Source: Streptosporangium lutulentum
Lineage (GTDB): Bacteria > Actinomycetota > Actinomycetes > Streptosporangiales > Streptosporangiaceae
Assembly: GCF_030811455.1 (NCBI RefSeq)
Contig: NZ_JAUSQU010000001.1
Coordinates: 8,618,001 to 8,682,000, forward strand
Reading direction: 5' to 3'
DNA length: 64,000 bases
Program-made: the position numbers and the translations under genes
The notes under the pieces: generated by a model
The model's database searches: none
Seen by the model: only the letters and a program-made list of their open reading frames with translations
What the model was told of the DNA's origin: nothing
Part shown: positions 22,675 to 24,716 of the stretch, piece by piece
Layout of the letters: the number at the start of each line of letters is the position of its first letter
How positions within the stretch are numbered: the first letter of the stretch is position 1

Positions 22675-22778
22675 GAGGGAGATCCTCCAGCGGCTCACGA
22701 TGAACCTCCGGGCGGGCCGTCTCGCAGGACGATGAGGGGGATGAGGATTGAGGCCGCCTGGGGCGGATCGCCGTCCGT

Positions 22779-23019
22779 GAGAGCCGGGGGCTGATGAGAG
22801 CGGGGTCTGGTGGGAGCAGGGCCTGGTGAGAGCGGGGTCTGGTGGGAGCAGGGCCTGGTGAGAGCGGGGTCTGGTGGGAGCAGGGCCTGGTGAGAGCGGG
22901 GTCTGATGAGAGCCGGGCCTTGTGAAAGCGGGGTCTGGTGAAAGCGTGACCTGCTGAGAGCGTGGCCTAGTGAGAGCGGGGTCTGATGAGAGCCGAGCCT
23001 GCTGAAAGCGTGGCCTCGT
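22779..23019. repeat. 16-bp minisatellite, fifteen units
   Basis: Fifteen head-to-tail units of 16 bp (the first 17 bp) follow the pattern GAGAGCGGGGTCTGGT. In the left half, two variants strictly alternate (GAGAGCGGGGTCTGGT and GGGAGCAGGGCCTGGT, three pairs from 22796 to 22891), indicating expansion of a 32-bp dimer; the right half is degenerate. The unit is not a multiple of three and the array is non-coding. It lies between the GNAT gene and the first small secreted-protein gene. Confidence 0.95.
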
Positions 23020-23206
23020 GCGAGAAAATGATGGGCGGAATATCACGAATTAAGGCCATTACGGCCTCAGGTGGTGACGCTCCTATCTCGCTCTCGTCGA
23101 CTGAAAAATGTACGCCATGCCGTTGTGGGTCATCGGCTGGATTCATTGCCGAAGCCGAAATCGTGATCTCTTCCGAGATGTAACCCTCTGCTTTCTTTCT
23201 CCCTAA

Positions 23207-23348
23207 TGATCCCGGACCAAGGCTTTGTTCTCTCTGGGGAGACCACTCATATGCCCCTCAACTAGCGTCTTTAGTAAGGACGCCGATTCGGCATATTTCC
23301 GGGAAACCGAGACGGTGCCCTGTAAGTCCAGGCGGTACGCCGGGATCA
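23207..23348 (+). ncRNA. Candidate structured 5' leader, copy 1
   Basis: The 142-nt element is closed by TGATCCCGG (23207-23215) pairing with CCGGGATCA (23340-23348). Inside are TCTC...GAGA, and GCGTC...GACGC with a 9-nt loop. A near copy sits before the paralogous gene at 24188. The stems are identical in both copies, while the GCGTC hairpin loop differs at 3 of 9 positions. The closing stem ends 12 nt before the GGAG ribosome site (23361-23364), the layout of a translation-controlling riboswitch or thermosensor. I could not match it with confidence to a known riboswitch class. Some of the conservation could instead reflect a recent duplication that included the promoter. Confidence 0.5.
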
Positions 23349-23372
23349 ACCACCAGACACGGAGTGATTTTC

Positions 23373-23648
23373 ATGTTGAAGCAGTTTCTCGCCGCCGGTA
23401 CGTTGGCGGCCGCCGGCCTCGTCGTCGCCATGACGGTGTCGGCCCAGCCCGCCGGTGCGAGCGCGGTGACTCAGGAAGCCACTGTCACGTCGGTGCTCAC
23501 GAGCGGTGGCAGTGCCTACCACGACCCCTACGACCCCACCTACCCCTGGGGCGGTGGCTACCTCCACCGCAATGCCTACGGCCCGGGTTACCACGTCCAC
23601 CCGGGCAACCCCTGGGGTAATTACGGATACTACGGCCGCAATTACTAG
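23373..23648 (+). CDS. Small secreted Tyr/Gly-rich protein 1
   Basis: ATG 23373 is used because GGAG (23361-23364) precedes it by 8 nt; GTG 23364 overlaps that site. The 91-residue product has a clean signal peptide (MLKQFLAAGTLAAAGLVVAM, cleavage after PAGA or ASA) and a mature part of ~60 residues that becomes Gly/Tyr/Pro/His-rich (YPWGGGYLHRNAYGPGYHVH), ending in GYYGRNY. I do not recognise a domain. Signal peptide and leader are shared with the gene at 24351, but the mature parts differ in composition. A cell-surface or matrix role is only a guess. Confidence 0.75.
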   Translation: MLKQFLAAGTLAAAGLVVAMTVSAQPAGASAVTQEATVTSVLTSGGSAYHDPYDPTYPWGGGYLHRNAYGPGYHVHPGNPWGNYGYYGRNY

Positions 23649-23845
23649 AAATGGCCCGGTATCAGCAGTAAATAACGACCGGTCGGTGCGGTGATCGAAT
23701 ACGTCCACCGGGTTCGGAGAATCGCGACCTCGGATGGCGGCCTCGGCAAGGCGATGATCGACGAACGCGCCATGCCTCACGGTCACCGCACCGGTGAGCG
23801 GCGCCGGCCACGGCTGATCGCGTCCGGTTCCCGCTCGTCGTCCAT

Positions 23846-23875
23846 GGCACCTCGGGTGGGCCCGCCCGAGGTGCC
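23846..23875. terminator. GC-rich 30-bp dyad
   Basis: GGCACCTCGGGTGGG (23846-23860) is followed directly by CCCGCCCGAGGTGCC (23861-23875). They are complementary except for one G-T pair, giving a 13-bp stem with a 4-nt loop. It lies 200 bp after small secreted protein 1 and may end its transcript. Confidence 0.5.
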
Positions 23876-24051
23876 GGCCCGGCGGGGAGAACATGAACGC
23901 GACGGACCTCGGATCCGAACCGCTGTGCCCGTGATCTTGGGATCCATGACGGTCGCCGGCGACGCCGCTCCTTCTCGGCGGTGAATCCGCCGCTTCGCGC
24001 ACATCGAGGAAGAACCGCGGAGGTGACGTGAGACGGAGGCCGGTCCGTGGA

Positions 24052-24099
24052 CTCGAACACATGCGGCCTCGAACACATACGGCCTCGGAAACATGCTGC
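24052..24099. repeat. Three 16-bp tandem units
   Basis: CTCGAACACATGCGGC, CTCGAACACATACGGC and CTCGGAAACATGCTGC follow each other without spacers. The array is about 90 bp upstream of the second leader. The unit sequence is unrelated to the 16-bp minisatellite at 22779, although the period is the same. Confidence 0.85.
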
Positions 24100-24187
24100 A
24101 CTGTCCGGAACCGCGGTGGGATTCACCGCCGGGATTGGATTCGCAACCCTCACTCCGAAGGCGCTCTTCGTCTTTCATTTTCCGTGA

Positions 24188-24326
24188 TGATCCCGGACCA
24201 AGCCTTTGTTCTCTCTGGGGAGACCACTCATATGCGCTCAACTAGCGTCTTCAGACAGGACGCCGATTCGGCATATTCCGCGAACTCGGTAGGCGCTAGG
24301 TAACTCCAGGCGGCACACCGGGATCA
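24188..24326 (+). ncRNA. Candidate structured 5' leader, copy 2
   Basis: The 139-nt element is closed by TGATCCCGG (24188-24196) and CCGGGATCA (24318-24326), as in copy 1. The first ~49 nt, including the closing strand and the CTCTCTGGGGAGA hairpin, match copy 1 with one substitution. The GCGTC/GACGC stem is unchanged. A short frame from ATG 24232 could encode 23 residues, but the equivalent frame in copy 1 stops after four codons, so a conserved leader peptide is unlikely. TAACTCC followed by AGGC near the 3' side faintly recalls the core of ydaO (c-di-AMP) riboswitches, but copy 1 does not keep it. Confidence 0.5.
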
Positions 24327-24350
24327 AACATCGGACACGGAGTGATTTTC

Positions 24351-24716
24351 ATGTTGAAGCATGCTCTTGTCACCGGAACATTGGTGGCTTCCAGCCTCAT
24401 CCTCGCTATGACGATGTCGGCCCAGCCCGCCGGTGCGAGCGGGATGACCCAGAAAACCGCCCCCGTATCTGGATTCCTGAATGATCCCCCTCCCGGCGGC
24501 CGCGATTACCACGGCCATCCCGGTGGCCATCCCGGTGGCCCGCCCGACTGGCGTCCCGGCGGTCGGCCTGATTGGCACCACGGGGGCTGGCCCGACTGGC
24601 ACCACGACCATCACTGGCACGGCAGGCCCGACTGGTACCACGGTCACGGCCACGGTCACGGTCACGGCCACGGCCACGGCCACGGTCACGGCCACCGAGG
24701 CCCCTTCAACCAGTAG
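24351..24716 (+). CDS. Small secreted His/Gly-rich protein 2
   Basis: ATG 24351 lies 8 nt behind a GGAG site, as in the paralogue at 23373. The 121-residue product has a matching signal peptide (MLKHALVTGTLVASSLILAM, then PAGASG). The mature part is rich in Gly, His, Pro, Trp and Asp (repeated RPDW or WPDWHH) and ends in nine or ten His-Gly dipeptides before RGPFNQ, encoded by a GGYCAC hexanucleotide run at about 24648-24695. Such tails bind Ni, Zn or Cu in characterised proteins; here this is inference. No domain is recognised. A terminator follows at 24772. Confidence 0.75.
   Translation: MLKHALVTGTLVASSLILAMTMSAQPAGASGMTQKTAPVSGFLNDPPPGGRDYHGHPGGHPGGPPDWRPGGRPDWHHGGWPDWHHDHHWHGRPDWYHGHGHGHGHGHGHGHGHGHRGPFNQ

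Follow-up and report, generated by a model that had tools for sequence, protein, structure and literature searches.

The two similar DNA stretches that precede a pair of small secreted-protein genes of Streptosporangium lutulentum are probably copies of a 5' regulatory cassette, a promoter followed by a leader of about 100 nt, belonging to a set of paralogous genes that in Streptosporangium and its relatives encode small secreted proteins. Both lie in a 64,000-nt window (the whole stretch of DNA analysed). The conserved pattern recurs in many genomes of the family and stands before one diverse family of small secreted-protein genes; the start site, action at the RNA level and any signal that the leader might answer are matters that we infer. 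A preliminary description had read each copy as a ~140-nt cis-acting RNA closed by a 9-bp stem. Its central idea holds in so far as a conserved cis element, widespread in the family, does precede secreted-protein genes, but the closed RNA anatomy does not.

The two copies in the window

Copy 1 (142 nt) and copy 2 (139 nt) begin with TGATCCCGG and end with CCGGGATCA, and these 9-bp arms are, as originally seen, exact reverse complements in both. The GGAG of the ribosome site, put earlier at 12-14 nt past the closing strand, lies 12 nt past it in both copies (from 23361 and from 24339). The copies had been said to differ at one base in their first ~49 nt, which is correct for 48 nt but not for 49, where there are two differences. 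The GCGTC/GACGC hairpin has the variable loop ascribed to it, 9 nt long with 3 of 9 positions differing between copies, and the two proteins indeed share a signal peptide and differ in their mature parts. Copy 2 is a duplicate of copy 1 and no independent case of the stem. In a single copy the 9-bp stem is just mildly unusual, since dinucleotide shuffling of the 142-nt leader (2000 times) yields some exact 9-bp inverted repeat in 2.7% of cases, and shuffling of the 300 nt around it in 11.6%. Relative to shuffles, the two strands of the leaders fold about equally strongly (z of -1.73 and -2.42 for the + strand of copies 1 and 2, -2.30 and -1.71 for the - strand). The features discussed below are collected in Table 1. 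Separately, a tandem repeat with a 16-bp unit (15.4 copies; 76% matches to the consensus GTGAGAGCGGGGCCTG) occupies 22777-23024 and ends ~180 bp 5' of copy 1.

Table 1. Coordinates in the window of observed and predicted features of the two copies.
Feature	Copy 1	Copy 2	Strand	Basis or remark
Leader as drawn in the preliminary description	23207..23348	24188..24326	+	closing stem present in the DNA of both copies, unconserved in relatives
CTTTGTTC, local form of the conserved CTTTTGCC block	23223..23230	24204..24211	+	0.83 bits per position, 109 loci
GAGACC, predicted weak -35 (family form GGGTGACC)	23239..23244	24220..24225	+	positions -26 to -19 average 0.58 bits
TAGCGT, predicted -10	23263..23268	24243..24248	+	TAnnnT in 70/73 rows
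Predicted transcription start (+/- 2)	23275	24255	+	placed from the -10 box alone
P1, candidate hairpin near the 5' end (copy 1 ACGCCG-ATT-CGGCAT)	23280..23294	24260..24274	+	88% of cells paired
GCCCTGT, partial ribosome-site complement (family form GCTCCGT)	23317..23323		+	pairing in 88.5% of cells vs at most 48.8% in slid versions
GCTAGGT, in the place of the ribosome-site complement; poor complement		24295..24301	+	alignments
P3, candidate hairpin 5' of the ribosome site	23327..23345	24305..24323	+	RNAalifold on 58 relatives; 78.6% of cells paired
Extended Shine-Dalgarno GGAGTGAT	23361..23368	24339..24346	+	ACGGAGTG columns
Small secreted protein, 91 aa	23373..23648		+	signal peptide, then Gly/Tyr/His-rich
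Small secreted protein, 121 aa		24351..24716	+	signal peptide, then His/Gly/Pro/Trp-rich with HG run

Relatives of the leader and the genes behind them

A DNA search found four copies in the genome itself, copies in 3 of the 16 genomes of the genus that were searched (its own included), and distant copies in the family. Of the 345 genomes searched in the order, 46 matched R1, a sequence-only model of 12 leaders, at E 0.01; its 81 matches, less 5 overlapping duplicates, left 76 distinct ones, and R2, a second model, was made after these had been read. At E 0.001, R2 has matches in 92 of 297 sampled genomes of the family, in 24 of 68 genera, and 8 copies in the genome of the window. The set used for most measurements was drawn from both. 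Four of the 76 were dropped, L038, L061 and L075 having no TAnnnT at the expected place and L060 no plausible ORF, which left 72; 40 further R2 loci, less L143, L178 and L180 (again no TAnnnT at the place), supplied 37 more, to a total of 109. The 40 are a part of the R2 matches, of which there are many more in genomes of the family, and the presence of TAnnnT in 37/37 of the R2 rows is no independent count because R2 was built from a set selected for it. L060 (G005:C25) shows the promoter-like pattern and P1 with no recognisable small ORF after them, and is perhaps a decayed copy. Streptosporangium subroseum has 7 matches to the leader pattern, in the same places as in genome G014, which is of the window's genus. 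When the class was sampled, 83 of 296 genomes passed E 0.01; 10 of the 83 are the genome itself and family members. Outside the family the best E was 2e-5 and the rest 1.6e-4 or weaker, many matches spanning the P1 part alone; we take them for chance and find nothing convincing among them.

A signal-peptide-like ORF follows 115 of the 116 loci read, with a median length of 98.5 aa and at most 200 aa in 111/116; the 115/116 is favoured by the method, as the ORF picker looks in the leader's direction only and its score rises with a ribosome site and with hydrophobicity at the start. The proteins typically start MLKHALAAGTLVASSL..., and their mature parts have diverged and are often of low complexity: three residues make up over half of the mature part in 50 of 101 proteins, and runs of G, N, Q, S, HG or DDW are found among them. 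Low-complexity runs recur across the family with differing residues, which points to repeats as a driver of change in the mature proteins. In the second window protein a 6-bp repeat, CCACGG, present in 9.7 copies at 24638-24695, encodes the HG run. Neither window protein had a Pfam or NCBIfam match above the curated cut-off, and two further pieces run beside them had none either. Some members of the family are very short, the same leader standing before secreted peptides of 41-60 aa whose ends are acidic or rich in DDW (L042, L077, L080, L082, L147, L153, L154, L157 and L158).

A promoter-like pattern inside the proposed leader

In an alignment whose rows were not chosen for the box, 70 of the 73 with letters at the six columns concerned have TAnnnT, for which the random expectation is 0.7% per site. 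In the selected 109 loci position 3 of the box varies freely and positions 4 and 5 somewhat, a pattern of conservation that looks like that of a -10 element; the 1.51 bits of the box and its invariant T, A and T are partly the result of selection, since rows without TAnnnT were left out. A conservation profile of the 109 loci, anchored on this box, is at background from -120 to -60 (0.05 bits per position), rises to 0.83 bits in the CTTTTGCC block ~40 nt 5' of the box and to 0.58 in GGGTGACC, and drops to 0.23 over the ~18 variable bases between GGGTGACC and the box. On the other side a variable stretch (0.30 bits) leads to GCGCCGTTTCGGCGT in the P1 region (1.01), a linker (0.81) ending in CGACGCTCCGTC (0.99), a hairpin stretch that varies (0.42), and the ACGGAGTG columns of the ribosome site, whose average of 1.53 bits is inflated, a GGAG-like pattern having served to find that block. 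The leader so predicted measures 90-110 nt in 81/109 loci and 150-180 nt in 15/109.

The whole resembles a sigma-70 (HrdB-type) promoter in its TAnnnT -10, in the conserved GGGTGACC ~18 nt 5' of it and in a predicted start ~7 nt past the box; it differs in that the -35 is weak and G-rich, is missed by a strict scan, and that conservation reaches on to the start codon. A scan with the strict sigma-70 consensus gave no match at the predicted promoter site, so that the promoter reading rests on conservation and position. Compared with TTGACA at the best of five spacings (16-20 nt), the -35 has 2/6 bases in 13, 3/6 in 57 and 4-5/6 in 40 of 110 loci; the best spacing is 17-19 nt in 97/110, a choice that chance also favours. 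Signs of another promoter type further upstream (GTGTAACC) were confined to close copies; positions -120 to -60 are unconserved family-wide.

Were transcription to start ~7 nt past the box, near 23275 in copy 1 and 24255 in copy 2, the RNA would lack the 5' arm of the closing stem (23207-23215 in copy 1). The 5' arm of the GCGTC hairpin begins inside the TAnnnT box and so looks to be in, or adjoining, the -10 element. The transcript thus probably starts inside the leader first drawn, an outcome that the preliminary description had itself named as telling against its RNA.

The closing stem and the GCGTC hairpin in relatives

The same description had looked to covarying base pairs in these two stems for support. 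Both arms of the closing stem are exact in 3 loci of the ~110 aligned (L060 being tallied beside the 109), and two of the three are those of the window. In the 12 close leaders 86% of cells are paired compared with 83.6% in shuffles, 24 of 500 shuffles reaching as high; this is a modest excess, yet 6 of 11 sequences do not form the fourth pair, at which L011 has G-C. In the wider alignment, where each pair has letters in just 14-37 of 76 rows, there is no excess (68.9% against 69.9% in shuffles), and the stem does not covary across the family. The closing stem was accordingly discarded as an RNA element, on the broken fourth pair, the lack of a wide excess and the rarity of exact arms. That the functional unit should nonetheless be a ~140-nt leader closed by TGATCCCGG and CCGGGATCA, transcribed from a promoter further upstream, appears very improbable to us: the exact arms in both window copies, the pairing among close leaders and the G-C of L011 speak for it, but the arms seldom survive in relatives, pairing in the wider alignment does not exceed that of shuffles, and the 5' arm sits 5' of the conserved promoter-like pattern.

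The GCGTC stem fared no better. Its changes in the 12 close leaders are one-sided, none two-sided, and a tree-based count over the 109 leaders falls in the same range as slid controls. Because one inner pair of the GCGTC/GACGC region changes on both sides in the wider alignment (27 cells), an extended inverted repeat, P0, was tested. Hairpin and extension are striking in single loci (L030, L023) and short or missing in the long-leader clade; the tree gives 3.0 compensatory events against 0-3.8 in slid versions, and this candidate too was rejected as RNA.

Known RNA classes

Rfam had no match at gathering threshold in the window, and the leaders matched nothing even with E relaxed to 10, in keeping with the remark that the element fits no familiar riboswitch class: no known cis-regulatory class was matched. 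On 19 homologous loci Rfam returned two tRNAs only. A faint ydaO-like TAACTCC..AGGC had been pointed out in copy 2; it is indeed confined to that copy among the 12 leaders, but Rfam lends it no support, the three weak matches at E up to 10 including none to ydaO and none on the leaders. Likeness to the ydaO-yuaA c-di-AMP riboswitch (RF00379) is thus limited to this short motif in one copy, neither leader matching the model. The open-access literature searched yielded no work on riboswitches or cis-regulatory RNAs in Streptosporangiaceae or Streptosporangium, and the portions of it consulted, PMC8269224 among them, had no description of the element; within Rfam and those portions we found none, and on this basis treat it as undescribed.

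Folding and covariation of the transcribed part

Evidence that the transcribed part works as a folded RNA is weak. The leaders have a mean fold z of -1.33, compared with -0.35 for equal-length upstream stretches (109 each), and stretches 3' of the genes fold more strongly still (mean -2.95, n=107), perhaps as terminators. Over 87 loci the P1 segment alone (-0.48) hardly differs from its upstream control (-0.32), and P3 (-0.75) differs modestly from the same control. An arm-permutation test using duplex energies was dropped: none of 2000 permutations did as well as the P0 and P1 arms, and 556 were as good as P2, but a control arm likewise outdid every permutation, so that relatedness drives the result.

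One form of RNA action would be a switch, in which a longer hairpin, PA (CGCCGnnUCGG...CCGAnnCGACG), forms in competition with P1, a helix GCUCCGU/ACGGAGU hides the ribosome site, and a ligand, temperature or a protein sets translation. We regard this as possible but doubtful. In its favour, RNAalifold proposed PA, GCUCCGU/ACGGAG (P2) and P3 unprompted from 58 leaders, PA and P2 persisting when all 72 were used; inferred compensatory double changes number 6.0 in PA (0-1 in slid versions) and 3.3 in P1 (0-1.6); and P1, with 88% of its cells paired, has 12 two-sided cells where letter shuffles have 5.4. One PA pair (C-G in 67, T-A in 16 and T-G in 5 of 109) reaches p 0.0027 under a tree-based null. 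The corresponding E is 0.024 when PA alone is considered and 0.059 for all 22 pairs that were tested, on the very data that had suggested PA. Thirty-six loci have both GCTCCGT and ACGGAG exact, 20-106 nt apart. Against the switch, that null yields no significant pair alignment-wide, nor any in P1 or P2, though it is simplified, spreading changes over all columns, and hence harsh on conserved ones; another PA pair is C-A in 52 of 109 leaders; and G-U changes are favoured over A-C changes no more than in the background (P1 0.62, PA 0.61, P2 0.52, against 0.54 +/- 0.12). Tests of ribosome-site sequestration gave weak results. Pairing potential is kept in P2, but its covariation is within the range of shuffles, its compensatory count is not above slid controls, its 3' arm would be fixed regardless because the ribosome constrains the Shine-Dalgarno, and copy 2 of the window has a poor complement. 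The unpaired probability of the ribosome site is slightly lower in native than in shuffled leaders (0.195 and 0.227, 88 loci), being below its own shuffled control in 50 of the 88 (nominal p 0.02, the loci being related).

The weakness of these RNA-specific signatures is also what speaks for a contrary account, in which the conserved transcribed blocks are DNA operators (palindromes CGCCGnnnCGGCG and TTCCCGGGAA) for a shared transcription factor and the leader RNA is passive. Palindromic blocks near the predicted start, with the conserved CTTTTGCC block and promoter upstream, fit it. Two observations do not. The distance from the blocks to the -10 box varies: an extra ~20-28 nt is found between box and P1 in L046 and L051, and past P1 in L063 and L069, with the remaining leader intact, and a variable distance from box to P1 is easier to reconcile with an RNA module than with an operator whose phase relative to the polymerase is fixed. 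Moreover, the first pair of P1 has G as often as A facing a partner that is mostly T (GT 42, AT 41 of 109); such a mixture is tolerable in RNA but would not be in a symmetric DNA site. We give this account, too, only a minority share of our belief.

Discussion

The cassette that we favour would work as follows. A sigma-70-like promoter, with weak GGGTGACC as its -35 and TAnnnT as its -10, would lie in the middle of the leader first drawn and direct transcription from near 23275 and 24255. The mRNA would carry a leader of ~100 nt made up of a 5' candidate hairpin, a conserved linker ending in CGACGCTCCGTC, a variable hairpin and an extended Shine-Dalgarno. Once transcription has begun, this leader would most likely set mRNA stability, ribosome loading or both, and the outcome would be joint expression of several dispersed secreted-protein genes. 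Control at the RNA level by the transcribed part is plausible.

Leaders of known kinds offer partial parallels. Translational riboswitches and thermosensors likewise have leaders of ~100 nt with candidate hairpins and a ribosome-site complement; here, however, there is no Rfam match, covariation is confined to one PA pair, there is no known ligand, and no enzyme or transporter gene lies directly 3'. The ompA leader is an example of a 5' stabiliser hairpin, and in many copies of the present element a candidate hairpin would begin within a few nt of the 5' end that we predict, but here the primary sequence is conserved, which a plain stabiliser does not need.

For work on the organism, the site at which to map transcription starts moves to near 23275 and 24255, away from the 5' side of the closing stem. 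For the family, R2 provides a searchable promoter-leader that marks a group of small secreted proteins; since their mature parts share little sequence, and the window members belong to no Pfam or NCBIfam family, both the protein family and a possible regulon can be found by the leader. A tentative further step, to which we would give less credence than to the cassette, is that Streptosporangiaceae possess a family-restricted new class of leader RNA, ~100 nt long, in which mutually exclusive P1 and PA hairpins are coupled to a ribosome-site helix and control a dispersed secreted-protein regulon. Should that be true, leader and signal peptide would be kept while rapidly diverging mature proteins turn over behind them, and, if the leader does act as RNA, it would add an undescribed regulator specific to this lineage.
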